A stretch of 23,812 nt of DNA from a virus. The stretch lies in the IMG/VR virus record IMGVR_UViG_3300026519_000064, positions 1-23,812 of that record; one strand, written 5' to 3'. A program made the translations under genes and the position numbers. The notes under the pieces were generated by a model. That model was not told where the DNA came from and did not search any database. It was given only the letters and a program-made list of their open reading frames with translations. Shown piece by piece: positions 1-21,428 of this stretch. Position 1 is the first letter of the stretch; every line of letters starts with the position of its first letter.

Positions 1-495
1 GCCCGTGTCACCAATGCCATCGGCTGTTCTGTTATTCCCAAATTCAAAATACCAGTTACTATCTGTTCCGAACGCAATTTGGCCGCGATCACCAACGCTG
101 ATTTCATACGCCGCTGGCAAACCCTTCAACTGAATTTCGTTGTTGCCCGCTCCAACCGCTTTGATTTGAACAGTATTTGACCCAACGATTGAGCCTGTTG
201 GGTCCAGCAACGGATATTTACGCCGAGGGTCATAAATAAAGAATTTTTGCAATGACCCTTGAAGTTTTCGAACCCTTGACGAAATCAACCGTTCTTCAGC
301 ATCATTGAGTTGATGAAAATTAAACCGACCCTTCCATTTAGGCGAAGCCATGACGCTCACCAGTGAATGACCTGTTCCCATCATATCAAACAAGTCGAAC
401 CGTTCCAAACCGAAGCCAGACAATTCAGTTAGTTTTGGTTCAATCATATCCATGAAATCAGGAATTGCATACGGAAAACCCGGAAAATCAGCCAT
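1..495 (-). CDS. Tail protein after the tape measure, cut by left edge
   Basis: This is an open frame of 165 codons from an ATG at 495 to the window edge, so the C-terminus is missing. The start is supported by a strong Shine-Dalgarno (GGAGGGTGAG) ten bases upstream, and it overlaps the tape measure stop (ATGGCTGA). The N-terminal half contains a stretch of the type 'WKGRF..HQLNDAEERLISSRVRKLQG..QKFFIYDPRRKYP'. That fits the pattern of siphophage tail-tip proteins, in which a 'LxGxxGxFxxxDP' segment follows an A/E-rich helix. Being the first gene after the tape measure also argues for a distal-tail or tail-tip role. The family is inferred from pattern and position only; no catalytic motif is visible. 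Confidence 0.6.
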   Translation of the reverse strand, partial: MADFPGFPYAIPDFMDMIEPKLTELSGFGLERFDLFDMMGTGHSLVSVMASPKWKGRFNFHQLNDAEERLISSRVRKLQGSLQKFFIYDPRRKYPLLDPTGSIVGSNTVQIKAVGAGNNEIQLKGLPAAYEISVGDRGQIAFGTDSNWYFEFGNNRTADGIGDTG

Positions 496-3004
496 AGCCG
501 CTCACCCTCCTGACACGCGGGTCATTTTTATATTGAGCCAAACGCTGATTGAACCCCTCATCGTGTTTTTTAAGAGCTTGAACCAGATCGTTTTGTGTAA
601 GATTTGAGCCTGACAAATTGAATGTGCGTTTGTCCTCATAGACAAAACCGCCACCGCCAGAACCGTTTTGCATTTTCACACCGAGTTCCCCTGAAGAATT
701 CCGAGACAATGGTATGATCGCTTCGGGTCCGGCTTCACCCATCAAACCAAATGTTCCGCCTTTTGCAAATGGGAAAACCGTCGGACTTGAAACAACCGTG
801 TTTGCATGTGCGCTTAACCCCGTGCTAGCATATACGCCGCCTTTTGCATTTGGAATCAACGAACTGACCAATCCTGCAATTGAATTGCCTGTTGAATATG
901 ACCCCAGCCCTCCGCCGATTCCGGCACCAATGGCACCGAAAATCATATCCCAGATACCATTTGCCGCCATTTCCAGCGCTTTTGACGCGATCTTATCAAG
1001 ATAGTTGGTGAACGCCCCCGACAAACTATCCACCAACGACTTGCCATCCCGCAACCCGGTTCGCATATCTTCAAAAAATGCGGCAAATCCTGTTCGGGCA
1101 GTGTCATAAAGTTCGTTGGTTTCAGTTAGTGAACTGTTGAAATTATCATTGGCAATCGTCATTTGGTCAATGCCACCAGCCGCGCTAGGCAGTGTTGCAG
1201 TGAATGTGTTGATGTTATCAGTCGCCACAACAACAACATCGTTCAAACTGTTCATTGATTGCAAATCTGCCGCCGTGAAAAGATTTTGTTGCAACTCGCG
1301 ACGACTGATAAGAATTGCATCAATCTGATTTTGCAATGAGGTTGACAAATTCATTGTGTCATCAAGAAACATGTTTTCAGCGCCATCAAAAGATGGTAAT
1401 GCGCCACGCCTTAAAGCGAGTTCTTCAGGTGACATTGAAACGCGATTTGCCGTTGCTTTCGCCTGCGCCAGCGTCAATTGTGCTTGTGCCAACTCCAATA
1501 CTTTATCAGTTGCCTGAAGCGCCGCCGCCGCTTCGGTTACAAAACTTTGTGAAACAGCATTCGTTGAATTTGTGACGGTCTCATTTAATCGGTTCAGAGT
1601 TTCTTGTGCATTTGCCAAACCAATCGTTGATCGCCCCGCGTCATCGGATCGGGTTTTATAAAACACAAAAGCACCGGCAACCGCACCGACCCCGAGCGCC
1701 AACAAACCAATCGGTCCTGTAATAACTGCAATTGCCGCCGCAAGCGCCCCTGTTGCCGCGCTGGCTGAAAGCGCCGCCGTCGCGTAAACCCCCAGCGCAG
1801 CGGCAATTGCCGAAATCAAACCCAACGCAATGTCTCCGTGCTCTGCTATCGCCCTTAAAAATCCGGTGATTCCTTGTGTCACCACCCTTAGTGTGTCGGT
1901 TAAACCGGCTTCACCGAGTGATAAAACCACCGCTTCGGATGCTGACGCAACGTTGCGCAAATCGCCTTGCAAATTGTCACGCATGATTGTTGCCATGCGG
2001 GTTGCTTCGCCAGACACATCGCTCAAAGTTCCGGTTAATTCCGCTAATTTTCCGCGATTTCCAATAAGTGCTTGAATAGCTGGTGCGCCTTTAATCCCAA
2101 AAATTTCAAACGCTTCAGTAACCCCCAAACCAGCATCGGCCAATCTGTTGACTATTTCAACAAACGAATTTGTTTCAGGATTTAATTCTTCAAGAGTCAG
2201 ACCCATTCCGGCAATTGTCTCACTGGCTTCTTTTGTCGGGCTGATTAAACTGGCAATAATTTTACGCAAGCCAGTGCCAGCCAATGTTCCTTGCAAACCA
2301 GCATCAGATAACGCACCGATTGCCGCCGCTGTTTCACCAACTCCTATTCCAGCCGCTGAAGCAATTGGGCCGACAAATTTTATTGCATCACCAAGCTGGG
2401 AAACGTCTGTGTTTGCCCGGCTGGACGCCGCCGCCAAAACATCAGTTACCCGCGCCGTGTCGACTGTATCAATCCCGAAGGCTGACATGATGTTTGACGT
2501 AATATCAGCCGCCCGCCCCAAATCCATCGCTGCCGCCGTGGCCAAATCCAGCACTTGCGGGATCGCTTCGATGGATTGTGCCGCTGTAAAGCCTGCCATT
2601 CCAAGAAATTTCAAACCGCTTGCCGCTTGCGCGGCTGAAAATTCGGTTGTACCGCCTAATTTTTTAGAAATTTCATTCATCGCCTCAAGTTCTGAACTTG
2701 AGGCGCGGGTGATCGCCGCCACCTGCGACATGCCACCCTCAAAACCCGCCAGAGTGCGCACAATTGCAGTTCCACCGAATGTTGCTGCCATCACCCCAGC
2801 AAGCCGCGACATACCACCCGCAAGGCGATTGACCGCACCATTTGTGGCGGTTAGCGCCGTACCATTTCTTGCAATTGTGCGTGTAAATTTTCCGCTTTGC
2901 CGGTCGGCGCGAGCGGTTGCACCCTTGAAACGATCCAGCCGTGTAGTTCCGCGTTTCAACTGCTCGCTATCAACTCGAAATCCGATTTCTGCAATTTCCG
3001 CCAT
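488..3004 (-). CDS. Tail tape measure protein
   Basis: This 838-residue protein sets tail length and is ejected with the DNA. The sequence shows a helical N-terminus, then a TP901-type tape measure core from about residue 88 (FEGGMSQVAAITRASS, later KFLGMAGFTAAQS). A glycine/alanine-rich hydrophobic stretch at about 395-450 probably crosses or inserts into membrane, and a helical region follows. The C-terminus carries the motif GEAGPEAIIPLSR (from about residue 756), which is characteristic of tape measure proteins. The start at 3004 lies just after the chaperone stop (TAG at 3009-3007). It is the longest ORF in the window and follows the frameshifted chaperone pair, which is the classical order. 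At roughly 0.15 nm per residue it would suggest a tail of about 125 nm (inference). The assignment is secure. Confidence 0.95.
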   Translation of the reverse strand: MAEIAEIGFRVDSEQLKRGTTRLDRFKGATARADRQSGKFTRTIARNGTALTATNGAVNRLAGGMSRLAGVMAATFGGTAIVRTLAGFEGGMSQVAAITRASSSELEAMNEISKKLGGTTEFSAAQAASGLKFLGMAGFTAAQSIEAIPQVLDLATAAAMDLGRAADITSNIMSAFGIDTVDTARVTDVLAAASSRANTDVSQLGDAIKFVGPIASAAGIGVGETAAAIGALSDAGLQGTLAGTGLRKIIASLISPTKEASETIAGMGLTLEELNPETNSFVEIVNRLADAGLGVTEAFEIFGIKGAPAIQALIGNRGKLAELTGTLSDVSGEATRMATIMRDNLQGDLRNVASASEAVVLSLGEAGLTDTLRVVTQGITGFLRAIAEHGDIALGLISAIAAALGVYATAALSASAATGALAAAIAVITGPIGLLALGVGAVAGAFVFYKTRSDDAGRSTIGLANAQETLNRLNETVTNSTNAVSQSFVTEAAAALQATDKVLELAQAQLTLAQAKATANRVSMSPEELALRRGALPSFDGAENMFLDDTMNLSTSLQNQIDAILISRRELQQNLFTAADLQSMNSLNDVVVVATDNINTFTATLPSAAGGIDQMTIANDNFNSSLTETNELYDTARTGFAAFFEDMRTGLRDGKSLVDSLSGAFTNYLDKIASKALEMAANGIWDMIFGAIGAGIGGGLGSYSTGNSIAGLVSSLIPNAKGGVYASTGLSAHANTVVSSPTVFPFAKGGTFGLMGEAGPEAIIPLSRNSSGELGVKMQNGSGGGGFVYEDKRTFNLSGSNLTQNDLVQALKKHDEGFNQRLAQYKNDPRVRRVSGYG

Positions 3005-3006
3005 GA

Positions 3007-3399
3007 CTATTTAGCCTTTGCACGCTGCTCCGCTTCGTCCGACATTCTGACTCGAATGTCGTTTAACTCATTTCCTTTTGAAATGCACCACGCATTGTGC
3101 ATTTTCAAAATTGCGACACACTCAAAATGAGTGATAACACGATTTGTGAGGGTTGACCAACTCATAAGGTCAACCCATGTGATCCGCATAGGTTGACCTT
3201 CAACAACCTTGTTTACGCCTTTGCAAATTTCATCATAAAGTTCGAGCAAATAAAACCCGACTTCAGGCGGTTCGACAATATCGGTTTTGTGTCCAAACCG
3301 TTCGTTTCGCTCAAGTCTAGTTTCACCATGATGATCAACTGTTTCATAACGCGCTCGAAACTCTAAAAATTCACAAAGTGGATCAATGATTTCATCCAA
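3007..3399 (-). CDS. Tail assembly chaperone, frameshift extension (gpT-like)
   Basis: This is the second ORF of the lambda G/GT-type pair. Its only in-frame initiation candidate is a TTG at 3399, and it has no good Shine-Dalgarno. The frame, however, is open upstream through 3432, where a -1 slip from the preceding ORF would enter it. The expected product is a fusion: 138 residues of the first ORF followed by 141 residues of this frame, beginning SRLTSGFNFAG, about 279 residues in all. In lambda the equivalent GT fusion recruits the tail tube protein to the tape measure during tail assembly and is absent from the virion. The ORF ends two bases before the tape measure start, as expected. It should be annotated as part of a frameshifted product and not as a stand-alone gene. 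Confidence 0.85.
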   Translation of the reverse strand: MDEIIDPLCEFLEFRARYETVDHHGETRLERNERFGHKTDIVEPPEVGFYLLELYDEICKGVNKVVEGQPMRITWVDLMSWSTLTNRVITHFECVAILKMHNAWCISKGNELNDIRVRMSDEAEQRAKAK

Positions 3400-3438
3400 A
3401 CCAGCAAAATTAAATCCGCTGGTTAACCGGGAAAAAAA
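3399..3438 (-). other. Programmed -1 frameshift signal between chaperone ORFs
   Basis: On the minus strand the zero frame reads GGG AAT TTT TTT CCC GGT TAA. The last T of AAT plus the two TTT codons form the slippery heptamer T TTT TTT (3438-3432). After a 7-nt spacer (CCCGGTT) comes a perfect 7-bp stem, AACCAGC (3424-3418) pairing with GCTGGTT (3405-3399) around a 12-nt loop. A -1 shift leads exactly into the downstream ORF. Heptamer, spacing and stem match the known design for tail chaperone frameshifting in tailed phages. Confidence 0.88.
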
Positions 3439-3845
3439 TTCCCATCCACCGACAACATTTCGTCAAGTTGTGTTTTGATGAATGGTGCCTCAACTAGCAA
3501 CTCTCTGAATGCTTTCTTGCTAAACTCCGGTTGTTCATGTCGGAAATGCGATTGATTTCCTTCATCATCAAACCCCCAGTTCCAGTCAATGACCGAGGCA
3601 ATATAGAGTCGCATTTGATTTTCATCGACTTGTTCAGTTGTGAACTGTTTACGTCGCATCAGCAATTTTTGACGCTGCTTGTCGATTTCTGCAATCACTT
3701 TTTTCATGGGATCGGAACCGGTTCCGATCACCGTCAAAACCAGCCCTGTAAAATCACCTGTCCCAGGATGCATGATTTTCAATTCAGCGCTTTTGCTTTT
3801 GATATTCGCAAAATCAAAACCTTCAACCTGCTTGTTTTTAGTCAT
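3423..3845 (-). CDS. Tail assembly chaperone, first ORF (gpG-like)
   Basis: This 140-residue protein lies between the tail tube and the tape measure genes, the position of lambda gpG. An ATG at 3845 is preferred over the upstream GTG because it sits behind AAAGGTGAAAGAA, a good Shine-Dalgarno. The sequence is charged and soluble (basic KQRQKLLMRRKQ segment, then an acidic, aromatic region IDWNWGFDDEG), with no membrane segment. Its last codons contain the slippery run that shifts a fraction of ribosomes into the next ORF. Most ribosomes would stop at the TAA at 3425-3423. The role is inferred from the conserved gene order and the frameshift signal; the sequence itself has no unmistakable motif. 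Confidence 0.85.
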   Translation of the reverse strand: MTKNKQVEGFDFANIKSKSAELKIMHPGTGDFTGLVLTVIGTGSDPMKKVIAEIDKQRQKLLMRRKQFTTEQVDENQMRLYIASVIDWNWGFDDEGNQSHFRHEQPEFSKKAFRELLVEAPFIKTQLDEMLSVDGNFFPG

Positions 3846-3864
3846 TTCTTTCACCTTTCATAAC

Positions 3865-3902
3865 AAAAAAAAAAAAACGTGCGGGTCAACCTGATCCGCA
3901 CG
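3865..3902 (-). terminator. Rho-independent terminator after tail tube gene
   Basis: On the minus strand a 7-bp GC-rich stem (CGTGCGG / CCGCACG, 11-nt loop) is followed directly by a run of 13 T. It lies 20 bp past the tail tube stop and just upstream of the chaperone RBS. It would limit transcription into the chaperone and tape measure genes relative to the abundant tube protein. Confidence 0.88.
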
Positions 3903-3922: not shown

Positions 3923-4387
3923 TCAGGCCGCGTCAAGCACAATTTCCGCCTGAACCAAACCAAGCGTGAACACTTCAAGATCGAAATCTTCATTGCGTCC
4001 GTGACCGTGTTTCGGGCCGGTAACCAAACCGCGATTGAAAAATGTAGTCGGATTCGTGACGCCACTGTCATTTAGTTCGATTTTGAAAGCATAATAGCTT
4101 TCCGTTGCTGCAGCCGCTCTCAGAGCATCTTGACCTGCGTCACTTGCATCACGTGCAACTTCAACAGTCGGGTCGCCCGCATCACTCGTACCTTTTGATT
4201 TTTGACGAACACTCGTGTCCCAGCCGTCATATGACAGGATATTGGTGTCCAGACCGGTTTCACCGTGCTCGCCTACACCGTTGACCTGCGTCCAAGTCAA
4301 CGCGGCGTAAGCCGCGGCGTCAGCAAGGTCTGTCGACTGTGCGACTGTGGCAATAAAGAACTTCGCGCCCTTATGTGATTTAACCAT
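3923..4387 (-). CDS. Major tail tube protein
   Basis: This is a 154-residue protein with the composition of a siphophage tail tube subunit: an N-terminal 'FFIATVAQSTDLADAAAYAALTWTQVNGVGEHGETG' type segment, then alternating beta strands, and a C-terminal strand 'FDLEVFTLGLVQAEIV'. The acidic or polar loops and Ala-rich helix in the middle fit the tube fold used by many phages. The start at 4387 has an AAAGGGA Shine-Dalgarno ten bases upstream. It sits between the tail terminator gene and the chaperones, which is canonical, and it has its own strong terminator, as expected for a high-copy structural protein. The fold call rests on pattern and order. Confidence 0.85.
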   Translation of the reverse strand: MVKSHKGAKFFIATVAQSTDLADAAAYAALTWTQVNGVGEHGETGLDTNILSYDGWDTSVRQKSKGTSDAGDPTVEVARDASDAGQDALRAAAATESYYAFKIELNDSGVTNPTTFFNRGLVTGPKHGHGRNEDFDLEVFTLGLVQAEIVLDAA

Positions 4388-4400
4388 GATTTAGTCCCTT

Positions 4401-4820
4401 TCATCCATTGCAATGGTAATTGATTGTTACCGGAAAAATCGCAACTTGTCGATCAATATCAAACAACATCGGCTGAACCGAAGGTTGACCATTTATCAGG
4501 ACAACAGCATCACCGCTTGTCAGTTTAACAGCATCCGCGAAATGGTCAATAATTGCGTCACAAATTTCCAAAACTTCAAGTGTTCCGCGTTGAAGCGGAT
4601 CAATAACCGCGATCCTGAACATTCCAGTGTAAAATGTGCCCGTTCTCCAAGCGTAATTCACCGGCTGATTCTGAAAATGTTTGAGTTCCAAATACCGTCC
4701 GTTGTCGGTTGGTGGTGAAAAATCAATGTTTTCAAAATTGATGGGTAATGCTGGCGTAAAAGGTGTGATTGACTTGACCCGATCAATCAGCGCTTGTTCA
4801 ATGTCCGTTTGAATTGTCAT
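4401..4820 (-). CDS. Tail terminator protein (DUF4128-like)
   Basis: This 139-residue protein begins 'MTIQTDIEQALIDRVKSITP', has a central 'YLELKHFQNQPV' strand with 'WRTGTFYTGMFRIAVIDP', then a helix 'LEVLEICDAIIDHFADAV', and ends in a strand pair around 'PVTINYHCNG'. That helix-strand arrangement is typical of the tail terminator (lambda gpU-like, DUF4128) family, which caps the tail tube and binds the head. The ATG overlaps the stop of the gp10-like gene (ATGA), implying translational coupling. A purine-rich AAAGGGAAAG lies somewhat far upstream. Position between gp10-like and tube genes supports the call. Confidence 0.8.
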   Translation of the reverse strand: MTIQTDIEQALIDRVKSITPFTPALPINFENIDFSPPTDNGRYLELKHFQNQPVNYAWRTGTFYTGMFRIAVIDPLQRGTLEVLEICDAIIDHFADAVKLTSGDAVVLINGQPSVQPMLFDIDRQVAIFPVTINYHCNG

Positions 4821-5311: not shown

Positions 5312-6151
5312 ATGTTGAACCCCACACAAAAACAAATTTGCAACGCTGAAATCACTTTTGAAATTGCACGAAACAATTCGGGCGCGCCGGTTGATTTGAT
5401 TGTTTCACTTATACAAGCTGAAATCGAAAAGCGCAACAAGGGTGAGATGATTAAACATGCCGTGACCAAATTGGTCACTCAAATTGTGGGAATGAAACAC
5501 CCTGTTTTGCTTGTCGGCCCTGCCGGGTGTGGTAAAACCACTATCGGCGAACAAGTTGCCAGCGATCTCAACCTGCCGTTTTTCATCACGTCAACAATTT
5601 TTGACACGCACGAATTGCTTGGATTTGTTGACGGACACGGGCAGTATCATTCAACCGCTTTTCGTCAAGCGTTCGAAAATGGCGGCGTTTGGATTGCTGA
5701 TGAAATTGACGCGTGGGACGCCGCCGCCCTGCTCGCCGCAAATAGTGCGCTGGCAAACGGTTTTGCAACTTTTCCAGATTGCCCTAAACCCGTCGTTCGT
5801 CATGTTAATTTCAGAATGATCGGAACTGCAAACACATTCGGTTCCGGCGCGGACAGGCTTTATGTTGGGCGTAATGAACTGGACGCCGCCAGTCTGGATC
5901 GTTTTGCAACTGTTGATGTTGACTATGACCCTGTAATTGAAATGAATGTGTGCAATTCAAACATTGAATGGCTTGAATATGTCCGTGAAGTTCGTTCAAA
6001 TGTTGAACGTTTGAAAATTCGCCATGTTGTTTCGACCAGAGCCGTGGCGATGGGTTCAAAAGCGCTGGAAAATGGTATTGATCTCAGAACCGTCTGCAAT
6101 TTGTACTTGTTCAAGGGGATGAGTAAAAACGACCGCGAAAGAGTGGAATGA
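5312..6151 (+). CDS. MoxR/CobS-like AAA+ ATPase
   Basis: This is a 279-residue AAA+ ATPase of the MoxR/CobS (AAA_5-like) type. Visible motifs: Walker A GPAGCGKTT (residues 69-77), Walker B VWIADEID (about 126-133), sensor-1 GTANT (171-175) and an arginine-finger candidate in LDRF (196-199). Relatives pair with a VWA-domain partner to remodel proteins or insert metals; in phages the substrate is generally unknown. The ATG at 5312 has only a weak AAGTGAG upstream. An internal ATG at 5447 has a better Shine-Dalgarno (AAGGGTGAG) and would leave 234 residues with Walker A intact. The helical first 45 residues look protein-like, so the longer form is kept. The VWA-like partner candidate lies at 6695-7612, separated by a two-gene cassette. 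Confidence 0.85.
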   Translation: MLNPTQKQICNAEITFEIARNNSGAPVDLIVSLIQAEIEKRNKGEMIKHAVTKLVTQIVGMKHPVLLVGPAGCGKTTIGEQVASDLNLPFFITSTIFDTHELLGFVDGHGQYHSTAFRQAFENGGVWIADEIDAWDAAALLAANSALANGFATFPDCPKPVVRHVNFRMIGTANTFGSGADRLYVGRNELDAASLDRFATVDVDYDPVIEMNVCNSNIEWLEYVREVRSNVERLKIRHVVSTRAVAMGSKALENGIDLRTVCNLYLFKGMSKNDRERVE

Positions 6152-6197
6152 TTGTCAAGTGCTGACACTTGACAACAGGGGCGAAGGCCCCTATAAT
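6152..6197 (+). promoter_or_regulatory. Consensus sigma70 promoter with operator palindrome
   Basis: TTGACA (6169-6174), exactly 17 bp, then TATAAT (6192-6197): a perfect consensus promoter. A perfect 10-bp inverted repeat, TTGTCAAGTG (6152-6161) and CACTTGACAA (6166-6175) with a 4-bp spacer, covers the -35. A second 6-bp dyad (AGGGGC / GCCCCT, 6177-6192) fills the -35 to -10 spacer. Such a strong, operator-covered promoter directly after the AAA stop (6151) probably serves the small gene and the HTH gene downstream, with the HTH protein as the likely repressor (inference). Confidence 0.82.
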
Positions 6198-6243
6198 GAG
6201 CACGTTAAAGGGACATGACGTCCCACTTGAAAGGAAATATAAG

Positions 6244-6498
6244 ATGTCTGGATTTTCACATTGCTTTACAGGGTCTTGGAGAGACGGGCAAATGGCCCCG
6301 GATTGCGGCCATTTGGTTATAGTCAGCTTTGACCAGAGGAACCATGCTTATTTCATTGAGCAATCCGATTATGACGATTTTATTGACTGGGTTGCAATAC
6401 AATGGGGGAGAGCCGATAATTTCCAGAGGGATGATGAGAATTCACTCGATTATCTGGAGAGGATCGGCGTCACAATCTCAATTAGAGACTGGTTGTGA
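6244..6498 (+). CDS. Small acidic protein of unknown function, moron-like
   Basis: This is an 84-residue unrecognised protein beginning MSGFSHCF, rich in Asp and Trp, with no membrane segment. The ATG at 6244 is chosen because it follows AAGGAAAT at good spacing and lies 46 bp downstream of the -10. An upstream TTG frame would run through the promoter itself. All six arginines use AGA or AGG, whereas the late genes mostly use CGN, so the gene was probably acquired separately. It overlaps the HTH gene by 4 bp (GTGA), so the two are co-expressed. A first gene plus a downstream HTH protein behind a palindromic operator resembles HigBA-type toxin-antitoxin order, but the protein lacks any recognisable toxin motif; this is only a hypothesis. 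Confidence 0.7.
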   Translation: MSGFSHCFTGSWRDGQMAPDCGHLVIVSFDQRNHAYFIEQSDYDDFIDWVAIQWGRADNFQRDDENSLDYLERIGVTISIRDWL

Positions 6499-6695
6499 AC
6501 AAGCTCAAACAGGCCCGGCAAAAGCTGGGTCTTACACAAAAGCAACTTGCGGCCATGCTGGACACCGATGCCCAGTCGGTGCGGCGAATGGAGATGCCGT
6601 CAAGTGCCAGCACATCACGAACACCACCTCCGCGGGCTAACCGGCTCATCGATGCATACCTCGAAGGCTACCGACCCAGAGATTGGCCGGAATAA
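6495..6695 (+). CDS. XRE-type helix-turn-helix DNA-binding protein
   Basis: This is a 66-residue protein with a clear XRE helix-turn-helix at the N-terminus: KLKQARQKLGLTQKQLAAML then DTDAQSVRRME, residues about 3-34. It is followed by a proline-rich linker and a short helix ending in GYRPRDWPE. The start is a GTG overlapping the previous stop. The ATG of the next gene overlaps its TAA (TAATG), so three genes are translationally linked. It is the obvious candidate to bind the palindrome at 6152-6175 and autoregulate. It is too short to be a CI-like repressor with a cleavage domain; a Cro-like or antitoxin-like role is possible. Confidence 0.82.
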   Translation: MNKLKQARQKLGLTQKQLAAMLDTDAQSVRRMEMPSSASTSRTPPPRANRLIDAYLEGYRPRDWPE

Positions 6696-7612
6696 TGAAA
6701 CAGATCGGGTCATATGTTGAACACCAAACCAGTTTTGCGTTGTCAAATCCGCAAGTTCGGTTTGGGTTTTCCAGCACTGGGGAGCTGATTGAATTTGTTA
6801 AAAACATCTCACCAGAAATTGCAAATGAACACAAAAACAGACGCAATGCGGCATGGGAGACCGATCACATTGCAATCAACTTCACCCAGACAAAAAGCAT
6901 GGATCACGCGGTTGATCTGGTTAAAAACGGCTGGCCTGAAGGTTTGGAGCGAATTAAATTGATGACCGAATTTTTTGAAACACAATCACCAACACGCAAA
7001 ACTCGCAAATATAACTGTGCTGGTGGGCGGGTAAATGTTGGCAAAATGTTGACTGGCAATCCCAAACACATGACCCGCCGCATCAAATCACCTTCAAAAA
7101 AAGTTATTACACTTTTTGTTGAATTGGGACAAACTGGCGGTGTTGACGCAAAAAAACTAATTGTCCGCGCCAATGTCATTGGAACAATCGTTGATCAACT
7201 GGAAATGCAAGGTTATTCGTGTGAACTGATCGGCGTCAATCAAAACGCACATGACAGTTCGAGAAAAAAACATATGGCTGATTTTATTGTCAAAATCAAA
7301 TCAGCGGGCGAACGTTTGAACCTGAACGATGCCGCTTTTGTTTTAGGTCACCCATCAACATTGAGACGTTTGAAATTCGCCTGCATGGCGACACAAGAAT
7401 TTTTAAGAAATCGTTGGAGTGGCATGGGCTATTCATCACCGGCTTTTAATGATGACCATCAACCCGAACCCGGTGTGTTTTATATCAAAAATATAAATGC
7501 GCACAATCAAGACGACATTGATCTAAACGCACTGCTCAATGAACAATGTGAAGTTGTTTTTGATTTGATTAAACCAGATGGTTTGCCGATTGATTTTAGT
7601 CCACACCGCTAA
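6695..7612 (+). CDS. VWA-like phage protein (DUF7192-like)
   Basis: This is a 305-residue protein. The ATG at 6695 overlaps the preceding stop; an upstream TTG is less likely. The N-terminal region has 'GFSSTGELIEFVKNI' and 'HAVDLVKNGWPEGLERI'. The core reads 'KKVITLFVELGQTGGVDAKK' followed by 'NVIGTIVDQLEMQGYSCEL' (about residues 145-195), a strand-helix-strand order like a von Willebrand A domain. The metal-site DxSxS is replaced by ELGQT. It resembles the phage family DUF7192 as I remember it. With a MoxR/CobS-like ATPase just upstream, it may be the adaptor half of an AAA-VWA pair (inference). Its 3' end overlaps the convergent minor head gene by 17 bp. Confidence 0.7.
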   Translation: MKQIGSYVEHQTSFALSNPQVRFGFSSTGELIEFVKNISPEIANEHKNRRNAAWETDHIAINFTQTKSMDHAVDLVKNGWPEGLERIKLMTEFFETQSPTRKTRKYNCAGGRVNVGKMLTGNPKHMTRRIKSPSKKVITLFVELGQTGGVDAKKLIVRANVIGTIVDQLEMQGYSCELIGVNQNAHDSSRKKHMADFIVKIKSAGERLNLNDAAFVLGHPSTLRRLKFACMATQEFLRNRWSGMGYSSPAFNDDHQPEPGVFYIKNINAHNQDDIDLNALLNEQCEVVFDLIKPDGLPIDFSPHR

Positions 7613-13120: not shown

Positions 13121-13312
13121 ATGATGGCCGGAAGTTGGTTTATAATTCGCAAATCCGATGGTGAGTTGATGTTTGAAACATTCAACTCCAAATTGGTCAA
13201 AGCACTTAACGCTGAAAAATATGTTGCAGAAACCGCATTGAATTATTTGAGTGCTCAAAATCATTCAATTCAATTGCATGATATAATGACCAATGAATGG
13301 TGGACCAAATGA
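13121..13312 (+). CDS. Small protein of unknown function
   Basis: This is a 63-residue protein beginning MMAGSWFIIRKSDGELMFETFNSK, followed by a helix ('LVKALNAEKYVAETALNYLSAQ') and ending NEWWTK. It is unrecognised. Two adjacent ATGs (13121, 13124) are possible; GGAG lies 12 bases upstream. A six-codon leader frame (ATG 13104, MELLSE) stops across the start, so coupling is possible. The opening 'WFIIRKSDGELMFETFN' resembles the opening of the next two small proteins ('YLIWNTATNEVTTQ', 'FVIWDCSTRAAIVQ'), so distant paralogy is possible. It is first in the island governed by the promoter at 13042. Confidence 0.65.
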   Translation: MMAGSWFIIRKSDGELMFETFNSKLVKALNAEKYVAETALNYLSAQNHSIQLHDIMTNEWWTK

Positions 13313-13347
13313 CACAATGGGTATTCGTGCAATGGAAGGGGTGCTGA

Positions 13348-13569
13348 ATGACAACTTATTTGATCTGGAACACCGCAACAAATGAAGTGACCACTCAAGC
13401 CCCAACTCGTGAAAAAATCATCAAATCACACAAAGACCCGCTTTTCAAACGCGGGCCGGAACAATTGATTTATGCTTTTGATGACAACACCGTCACAATT
13501 TACAATTGGCGTAGTTTTTCGCAATTGACCTTGTTTGAAGGTGTGGCACGGTTTAATGCTGGTTTATAA
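13348..13569 (+). CDS. Small protein of the 'xIW...LFEGxxRFN' set, member 1
   Basis: This is a 73-residue unrecognised protein. An ATG at 13348 follows GGAAGGGG. It begins MTTYLIWNTATNEVTTQAPT, has a basic middle (KIIKSHKDPLFKRGPEQ) and ends SQLTLFEGVARFNAGL. The end motif LFEGVARFN recurs as MFEGAERFN near the end of the next protein, and the openings 'YLIWNTAT' and 'FVIWDCST' correspond, so the two are probably paralogues. The next gene starts inside its last codons (ATG 13556). The DNA encoding FEG (GAAGGTG) may double as that gene's ribosome-binding site. Confidence 0.68.
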   Translation: MTTYLIWNTATNEVTTQAPTREKIIKSHKDPLFKRGPEQLIYAFDDNTVTIYNWRSFSQLTLFEGVARFNAGL

Positions 13570-13837
13570 CGGTTCAGAATGGGATTTCGTGATTTGGGAT
13601 TGCTCAACGCGCGCGGCAATTGTTCAAACACATCACATTGACGGGTTGATGCTATACCAAAACATCAGTCGAAAGCATCCAACACGGTTTTGCTGTGTCA
13701 TTCCTAAAATCTTAGGGCTATTCGGCAACCCGACTCAATGGTTCAAACCACAATCATCTGTTTATGATCACACGATGTTTGAAGGTGCAGAAAGGTTTAA
13801 TACTCATGTTCAACATCTTAAAAATCAAGCGAATTGA
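13556..13837 (+). CDS. Small protein of the same set, member 2
   Basis: This is a 93-residue unrecognised protein starting at ATG 13556, 14 bp inside the previous gene; an upstream TTG in frame is less likely. It begins MLVYNGSEWDFVIWDCSTRAAIVQTHH, has a hydrophobic middle containing two cysteines (TRFCCVIPKILGLFG) and ends HTMFEGAERFNTHVQHLKNQAN. The MFEGAERFN motif matches member 1. The aromatic 'EWDFVIWD' opening suggests a strand in a small beta sheet. It overlaps member 3 by 32 bp. Function unknown. Confidence 0.66.
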   Translation: MLVYNGSEWDFVIWDCSTRAAIVQTHHIDGLMLYQNISRKHPTRFCCVIPKILGLFGNPTQWFKPQSSVYDHTMFEGAERFNTHVQHLKNQAN

Positions 13838-13970
13838 TTATCTGACTAACCGAAACACGGGCGCAAAGACAACCCAGATTCTTTATTATCGCGGTAAAAC
13901 ACCAATGTGCGCCCGGTTCAATGGATTTTTTGAATTAAATCAATTGAAATTATTTTTGAACAATTGTTGA
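13806..13970 (+). CDS. Small protein of the same set, member 3
   Basis: This is a 54-residue basic protein: MFNILKIKRIDYLTNRNTGAKTTQILYYRGK, then 'ARFNGFFELNQLKLFLNN', ending in Cys. The ATG at 13806 lies just after the GAAAGGTTTAATACT segment that encodes RFN of member 2, the same arrangement as at the previous junction. An earlier ATG at 13764 would deepen the overlap. The order 'YLTNRNTGAKTTQ' resembles 'YLIWNTATNEVTTQ' of member 1, and an 'ARFNG' is again present. It is short and unrecognised, so confidence is moderate. Confidence 0.52.
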   Translation: MFNILKIKRIDYLTNRNTGAKTTQILYYRGKTPMCARFNGFFELNQLKLFLNNC

Positions 13971-20193: not shown

Positions 20194-21174
20194 TCATTCA
20201 ACCAGTCCTTTGAATATGTGCGCAATTACATCGACCGTCCACCCATTGCCGAGCATTTTATAGCGCTGAGTGTTGGAAACGTGGTTTGTGTAATTATCTG
20301 GAACGGTTTGAAGGCGTTCGCATTCGATTGGGGTGTATCGGCGATACTTTCCGTTCATCAGGATCAAGTCCATGTCAGAATGATTTCCGCCACTATGCGC
20401 CCCTCCGGTCAGACAAGATGCCTTTGATGAATCTCGCTTAGGGTTTCCCTTTTTGTCAGTCTTGATTAAGAAGTTGTTATGTTTCCATGAACTAGATGTG
20501 ACAGACCCAATTTTACCATCCTTTGCGAGGATTCCGCCGGGATTGTTGCCACATCCGAGAAGAAAACTAAAACATTCCTTTTGCTCGTCTTTATCAACAA
20601 CATCACTCAAAACAATACATCGATCTTCTGGTTGCTCAAGAGCGCCAATATTCGTCCAATAATACCGAACACGGTTCTGCGCTGATACAAGCGCCGAGTT
20701 GATTTTTACAGGCTGAACACCAAGCAATTCACTTATCACATCCAGATGCTCTTGCTTCATCCTTACATTTTCGAGCATGAACTTAATTTCAGGATTTGAT
20801 ACACGTAATTTAGCCAGAACATCAACATATTTGAAAAACAAGGCCGATCTAGGATCGTTAAATGCAAGTTGTTTGCCAGCAAACGAAAAGCCCTGACATG
20901 GACTTCCGCCGATCAAAAGATCAATTTTTGGCAAGTCCCACGTCTCCCATTCGGTCACATCACCAAGTTGAATGGTGTCTGGGTAATTTGCCTGAGTGAC
21001 CTTAATTGCGTACTTGTCAATTTCAGACGCGAAATATTTGTCAACGCTAATGCCAGCCCGGCCAAGTGCAATTTGGCCACAAGACATTCCGTCGAATAGT
21101 GAAAGAACGTTCATCCCTCTCTCTCCTGTCCGGGGCAGCGTTTGAACAACCGCTTCATCTGGCGGGTTGGTCAT
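20194..21174 (-). CDS. DNA (cytosine-5) methyltransferase
   Basis: This is a 326-residue C5-cytosine methyltransferase with the full motif series: I FDGMSCG (27-33), IV SPCQGFSFAG with catalytic Cys93, VI LENV (134-137), VIII QNRVRYYW (166-173), a target-recognition region (about 195-270), IX RRYTPIECERLQTVPDNYT and X MLGNGWTVDVIAHIF at the C-terminus. Two starts are possible: ATG 21174, which overlaps the previous stop (ATGA) and follows TGGAG, or ATG 21114 (306 residues), which follows a strong AGGAGAGAGAGG and directly precedes motif I. Likely roles are protection from host restriction or control of replication or packaging. No partner nuclease is visible, so it seems an orphan enzyme. The target cannot be read from sequence. 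Confidence 0.93.
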   Translation of the reverse strand: MTNPPDEAVVQTLPRTGERGMNVLSLFDGMSCGQIALGRAGISVDKYFASEIDKYAIKVTQANYPDTIQLGDVTEWETWDLPKIDLLIGGSPCQGFSFAGKQLAFNDPRSALFFKYVDVLAKLRVSNPEIKFMLENVRMKQEHLDVISELLGVQPVKINSALVSAQNRVRYYWTNIGALEQPEDRCIVLSDVVDKDEQKECFSFLLGCGNNPGGILAKDGKIGSVTSSSWKHNNFLIKTDKKGNPKRDSSKASCLTGGAHSGGNHSDMDLILMNGKYRRYTPIECERLQTVPDNYTNHVSNTQRYKMLGNGWTVDVIAHIFKGLVE

Positions 21175-21428
21175 TTTATTAACTCCACATGAACCAGTGC
21201 TTGGTCGTGACTGACAATGTCCCGGCCGGTGCGCTTCCATGATTTGACCGTGAGTTCATAAGTTCCATTGATTGATTTCAGTTTAATCTTTCTGCCGGGG
21301 TGCAGAATATCACTGATCTGGACCCATATGTCACCTTCAAACCGTCTCACCACGCTCAGAGAATTGCAAACTCTGTTGAAGGTCGCGGCATTGACTGTAA
21401 CGGTTCGAATGTCGGTTTCATTTTTCAT
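21171..21428 (-). CDS. Small protein of unknown function
   Basis: This is an 85-residue unrecognised protein. ATG 21428 lies behind GGAGATTGACT and overlaps the end of the preceding gene; an in-frame TTG two codons earlier is less likely. It reads as a helix (NAATFNRVCNSLSVVRRF) followed by beta strands ('DIWVQISDIL', 'RKIKLKSINGTYELTVKSW', 'ALVHVELIK'), a compact domain resembling a small nucleic-acid or ligand-binding barrel. Its stop overlaps the methyltransferase start, so the two are translationally coupled and may work together, though no family is recognised. Confidence 0.7.
   Translation of the reverse strand: MKNETDIRTVTVNAATFNRVCNSLSVVRRFEGDIWVQISDILHPGRKIKLKSINGTYELTVKSWKRTGRDIVSHDQALVHVELIK

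Follow-up and report, generated by a model that had tools for sequence, protein, structure and literature searches.

A 23.8-kb metagenomic virus record (the window, by which we mean the whole stretch analyzed) carries its structural genes on the minus strand, and among them two open reading frames, flanked by the genes for the major tail protein and the tape measure, overlap in different registers. The question raised by this locus is whether the two frames (ORF1 and ORF2) encode separate proteins or are read as one, as an earlier note drawn from the DNA alone had proposed. Our analysis indicates that a −1 programmed frameshift of the lambda G/GT type very probably joins them.

An overlapping pair among the tail genes

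The genes and signals around the pair are as follows.

488..3004, minus strand: tape measure protein, directly downstream of the pair (Pfam PhageMin_Tail, E 1.8e-42; phrog_1533, E 6.7e-81)
3007..3462, minus strand: ORF2 open frame with a T-like domain, in the −1 frame (phrog_20700, Pfam Phage_TAC_18 in relatives, AlphaFold model)
3423..3845, minus strand: ORF1, G-like tail assembly chaperone of 140 aa, with an alternative GTG start at 3854 (phrog_313, P106B match, AlphaFold model)
3865..3902, minus strand: probable intrinsic terminator between the major tail protein gene and ORF1, CGTGCGG...CCGCACG followed by T13 (fold of −13.9 kcal/mol and reading of the sequence)
3923..4387, minus strand: major tail protein, directly upstream of ORF1 (phrog_158, E 8e-16)
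4401..4820, minus strand: tail terminator protein (Pfam Phage_tail_terminator_5, E 2.7e-19)

In order of transcription the genes run neck, tail terminator, major tail protein, ORF1, ORF2, tape measure and distal tail protein, and the pair therefore occupies the standard G/GT place between major tail protein and tape measure. Its identification as a tail chaperone pair, claimed in the earlier note, is borne out by this position together with the match of ORF1 to phrog_313 ("Tail assembly chaperone"; E 1.7e-10), an established chaperone family. ORF1 is also 34% identical to its homologue in phage P106B over 90% of its length, and its AlphaFold model has a pLDDT of 89. The ORF2 model (pLDDT 93) is mainly helical; the protein matches phrog_20700 (E 7.7e-14), a family that carries no function label, and matches Pfam Phage_TAC_18 weakly (14.5 bits, under the 27-bit cutoff), a cutoff that its homologue in phage X2_24 passes (29.6 bits). 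A fold search of the PDB with the two models returned no significant match for either, a result that counts neither in favor of the assignment nor against it.

The likeliest start of ORF1 is ATG 3845, which is preceded by the Shine-Dalgarno (SD) sequence AAAGGTG and is preferred over GTG 3854; its stop is TAA 3425-3423. The ORF2 frame, −1 relative to ORF1, is open from 3462 through the end of ORF1, that is, for 21 codons upstream of TTG 3399-3397, the single start codon before the conserved ORF2 domain. The only SD-like stretch near this TTG is weak (−3.3 kcal/mol) and sits at the distant edge of the 20 nt inspected. The predicted −1 fusion comprises 280 aa from ATG 3845, within one residue of the ~279 residues given in the earlier note, or 283 aa from GTG 3854; the poor TTG start and the frame open through the slip site were likewise correctly read there.

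Several other features of the window deserve mention in their own right. The strong hairpin with its T13 tract (3865-3902) resembles an intrinsic terminator, one that would keep chaperone output below that of the tail tube protein. Inside ORF1 (3701-3739) is a near-palindromic stretch around GATCGGAACCGGTTCCGATC that also matches the opposite strand. Within the region of structural genes, a plus-strand block at 5312-7612 encodes an AAA ATPase, a helix-turn-helix protein and a DUF7192 protein, and P106B and X2_24 also carry an opposite-strand gene just upstream of the tail genes (an ATPase in X2_24). Several small adjacent plus-strand ORFs at 13121-13970 share similar start motifs (e.g., TYLIWNTATNEVTTQ and DFVIWDCSTRAAIVQ) and may be duplicated copies, and a phage-borne C-5 cytosine DNA methylase gene (Pfam DNA_methylase) lies at 20194-21240.

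Slip site and hairpin in the window

Four features surround the end of ORF1.

3441..3450, minus strand: SD-like GGTGGATGGG, a possible weak stimulator just upstream of the slip site (−6.0 kcal/mol, within the strongest 8% of ORF1 windows)
3432..3438, minus strand: slippery heptamer T_TTT_TTT, zero frame AAT TTT TTT CCC (from the sequence, with in-frame homologues in most relatives)
3399..3424, minus strand: stem-loop of 7 perfect bp with a 12-nt loop, after a 7-nt spacer from the heptamer (from the sequence and RNA folding)
3385..3435, minus strand: zone with a 36-nt (12-codon) insert carrying the stem-loop, its exact borders ambiguous (from the alignment and comparison with Marinobacterium prophage FFSRLTAELCEA)

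Read in the zero frame, ORF1 ends GGG AAT TTT TTT CCC GGT TAA, with the heptamer (3438-3432) two codons before the stop and in the phase required for a tandem −1 slip. The heptamer and its frame, the spacer and the perfect stem (arms 3424-3418 and 3405-3399, enclosing the loop at 3417-3406) are all as the earlier note described them. Of the codon positions in this phage's genes, 0.56% carry an in-frame motif of the form X_XXY_YYZ, giving a chance of ~7% of finding one in the 13-codon overlap, and the listed minus-strand genes contain T_TTT_TTT itself in frame three times. The SD-like stretch upstream may be a weak 5′ stimulator, a suggestion in keeping with the over-representation of such stretches 5′ of the slip site (mean rank 0.26 versus 0.5 expected).

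Folding lengthens the predicted stem to 10 pairs. The stretch downstream of the heptamer is predicted to be unusually stable over 42 nt (−15.0 kcal/mol, z = −2.95; 0 of 200 dinucleotide shuffles as stable) and 46 nt (−14.4 kcal/mol, z = −3.5), an excess that fades over 92 nt (z = −1.25). A perfect 7-bp stem 5-9 nt downstream is found at 1.15% of minus-strand positions, and ~5% of 46-nt windows have equally stable folds. The evidence for frameshifting from this single genome is hence good but suggestive rather than compelling, and the comparative data are decisive.

Comparison separates the hairpin from the slip site. The 12-codon insert that separates the slip site from the conserved T domain is found in the window only and is absent from the 30 aligned relatives. 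Downstream of the slip site, relatives fold in no consistent way (most z-scores lie between +1.4 and −2.4, passing −3 only in loci L053 and L069). Scans with the tape measure and major tail proteins for close relatives found none sharing the hairpin; three loci from these scans (L167-L169) have the pair with T_TTT_TTC or A_AAT_TTT. We considered a conserved 3′ stimulatory stem or pseudoknot and rejected it, as the stem of the window sits in a phage-specific insert. The hairpin is not a conserved part of the frameshift signal, and the earlier note's inclusion of it in that signal is to this extent not supported; in this phage it may raise the slippage rate, a guess that we would put at about even odds.

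The slip site in related loci

Scans of IMG/VR with the single ORF1 or ORF2 protein gave no usable relatives; an ORF2 alignment search of IMG/VR yielded 80 loci and an alignment search of bacterial genomes 52. The two-frame arrangement is kept at about 130 related loci, and in almost every one the register is −1. The viral loci and named phages provide 48 distinct site sequences, of which 42 carry a heptamer in frame at the homologous position (18 A_AAT_TTT, 13 T_TTT_TTT, 10 T_TTT_TTC and one T_TTT_TTA; six have none), and the bacterial-genome loci show the same types. The site in the Marinobacterium prophage (CGT TTT TTT CCC GGC TAA) is nearly the window's own sequence, and ORF2 lies in the −1 frame after the homologous sites of P106B (GAT TTT TTT CAA CGC TAG) and RHph_X2_24 (CGT TTT TTC GCG AAT TGA). 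Five lineages in the −1 register have T_TTT alone, with a single slip codon (L007, L083, L077, L224 (RHph_X3_2) and L225 (CRP-6); examples of such sites are GAT TTT TAT, GAT TTT ACG and CAG TTT TTT ACG). The slip site and the −1 register are conserved in the relatives, with exceptions in these single-codon sites and in a +1 class described below. This supports the −1 frameshift at T_TTT_TTT advanced in the earlier note, which had held that loss of the heptamer in close relatives would count against it; the heptamer is conserved. At rhizobial A_AAT_TTT loci such as L027, L036 and L049, a perfect SD-like GGAGGA lies just upstream, recalling the stimulatory SD of dnaX.

The relatives bear directly on the possibility that ORF2 is made separately, by initiation or reinitiation at TTG 3399, 24 nt past the ORF1 stop. 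The TTG is present in the window's ORF2 frame, and in some relatives, too, a TTG follows the ORF1 stop at a distance of 11 nt; however, its SD-like stretch is not only weak but too distant, the codon sits at the foot of the hairpin, and the open frame and its register are preserved back through the heptamer. Moreover, many ORF2 homologues have no in-frame ATG, GTG or TTG before the conserved domain, or none for some 30-50 codons past the ORF1 stop, and in many relatives, P106B included, no start codon appears until deep in the conserved domain, so that independent initiation cannot make the whole domain there. We therefore regard separate synthesis of ORF2 as very unlikely.

Slippage could also be transcriptional rather than ribosomal, with the polymerase producing mRNAs with an extra U on T7. 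The tract is a homopolymer, extended to T8 in some relatives, and many IS elements use transcriptional in place of ribosomal slippage (PMC5009743). Against this, the homologous sites A_AAT_TTT and T_TTT_TTC contain no long run, yet both the pattern for a tandem slip and the register persist there, making a transcriptional origin highly unlikely. A run of seven T is, in addition, short for transcriptional slippage in bacteria.

Codon choice at the slip site addresses the further possibility that Phe-Phe is conserved for the sake of the protein and that the T run is incidental. The T-type relatives do keep Phe-Phe where ORF1 ends; however, at the 26 divergent heptamer loci the codon immediately 5′ of the first slip codon has the required third base whatever its residue (T for Asn, Asp, Arg, Ala, Gly and Ser alike), the rarer TTT or AAT is used even in GC-rich phages (e.g., GCT TTT TTT at 68% GC), and an Asn-Phe lineage keeps A_AAT_TTT instead. 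The joint probability of the codon choices at these 26 sites, given each locus's own codon usage, has a log10 P of −24.7, a value to be taken as strong rather than exact since the test covers only heptamer-bearing loci and ignores shared ancestry. A protein-level explanation is exceedingly unlikely. Finally, although homopolymer frame breaks are typical sequencing errors, an error or a decaying pseudogene is next to impossible, as both halves are well conserved and the break recurs at this position in numerous independent contigs, in isolate genomes and in named phages.

The reading that we favor, programmed −1 frameshifting, builds on the observed anatomy, gene order, homology and conservation of site and register; from these we infer the slippage itself, its rate and the binding roles of the products. 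On this strongly supported reading, ORF1 and ORF2 are the G and T parts of one tail assembly chaperone. The majority of ribosomes would terminate at TAA 3425-3423 to give the 140-aa G-like protein, and a minority, with two tRNA-Phe on T_TTT_TTT, would slip back one base into the −1 frame to give the 280-aa G-T fusion. If the parts act as they do in lambda, the tape measure protein would be bound by G and the major tail protein recruited by T. Slippage at U_UUU_UUU in E. coli constructs is weaker than at A_AAA_AAG (PMC5009743), but low slippage rates are what G/GT pairs need.

Changes of direction and known systems

In one class of related loci, TTT_CGC or TTT_CAG stands at the homologous Phe-Phe site and ORF2 occupies the +1 frame. 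These are a metagenomic locus (L023), Phyllobacterium loci (L041/L177) and prophages of Xanthomonas and Stenotrophomonas (L212, L216-L218 and L221-L223). On the ORF2 tree the +1 state requires three changes, and a grouping of all +1 loci in one clade is rejected (AU p 0.0012; p 0.013 without L023), so that the switch from −1 to +1 at the same Phe-Phe site occurred at least two or three times. Removing one T from a T7C site would turn −1 into +1 at the same place with the fusion kept. In a different system, experiments support +1 slippage at UUU_C (PMC3498833). The broader proposal, that frameshift direction has flipped repeatedly between −1 (T_TTT_TTY, A_AAT_TTT) and +1 (TTT_CGC/TTT_CAG) and that the direction-neutral U run tolerates its own indels, seems to us evenly balanced between true and false. 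Indifference to frameshift direction has already been noted for phage coat proteins (PMC5009743). The switching seen here is an extension of that known indifference and not a new principle.

The pair resembles lambda G/GT in its overlapping ORFs between major tail protein and tape measure, in a −1 slip near the end of the first ORF and in the fusion of G-like and T-like parts, and differs in the hairpin downstream in this phage. The lambda tail assembly chaperone frameshift was reportedly described by Levin in 1993 and by Xu, Hendrix and Duda in 2004. Its heptamer is GGGAAAG, unlike the T_TTT_TTT of the window. We detected no sequence family common to the window pair and lambda G/GT; sequence similarity between phage groups is normally low in the G/GT class, whose frameshift is a textbook feature of long-tailed phages (reviewed in PMC5009743).

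Poly-T runs are also known from tail gene pairs, with T6G in P2, T7G in Smp131 and T7C in related prophages (PMC3931495), and T_TTT_TTT is among the two commonest sites of the present family; the all-T heptamer is not the unusual case for which the earlier note had taken it. P2 E/E+E′ and Smp131 orf27/orf27.1 share with the window pair a −1 frameshift at a poly-T run close to where the first tail gene ends and a second ORF that lacks a good ribosome binding site (PMC3931495), but they belong to a myophage tail operon and have the mechanism in common, with no sequence relationship found. Closer are the Rhizobium phages vB_RglS_P106B and RHph_X2_24 (Rigallicvirus; P106B genes 29/30 and counterparts), whose homologues of ORF1 and ORF2 (~30-34% identity) have the same place, the same −1 register and T_TTT_TTT or T_TTT_TTC, but lack the 12-codon insert and have no exceptionally stable hairpin. 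The mechanism is already known and the window pair is a further, ordinary example of it, conserved in its relatives.

As the earlier note had anticipated, annotation misses the frameshift: the records of P106B, RHph_X2_24, RHph_X3_2 and CRP-6 list the pair as two distinct hypothetical proteins, and that of P106B leaves the greater part of ORF2 without annotation. Annotation gaps of this sort are documented for such genes (PMC10885494). The present analysis corrects how a widespread chaperone pair, found mostly in alphaproteobacteria, is annotated, since its second half generally goes unrecognized or is labeled hypothetical. It also describes a family in which the type of slip site, and even its direction, evolves while the fusion is kept, offering tests of what makes slip sites work.
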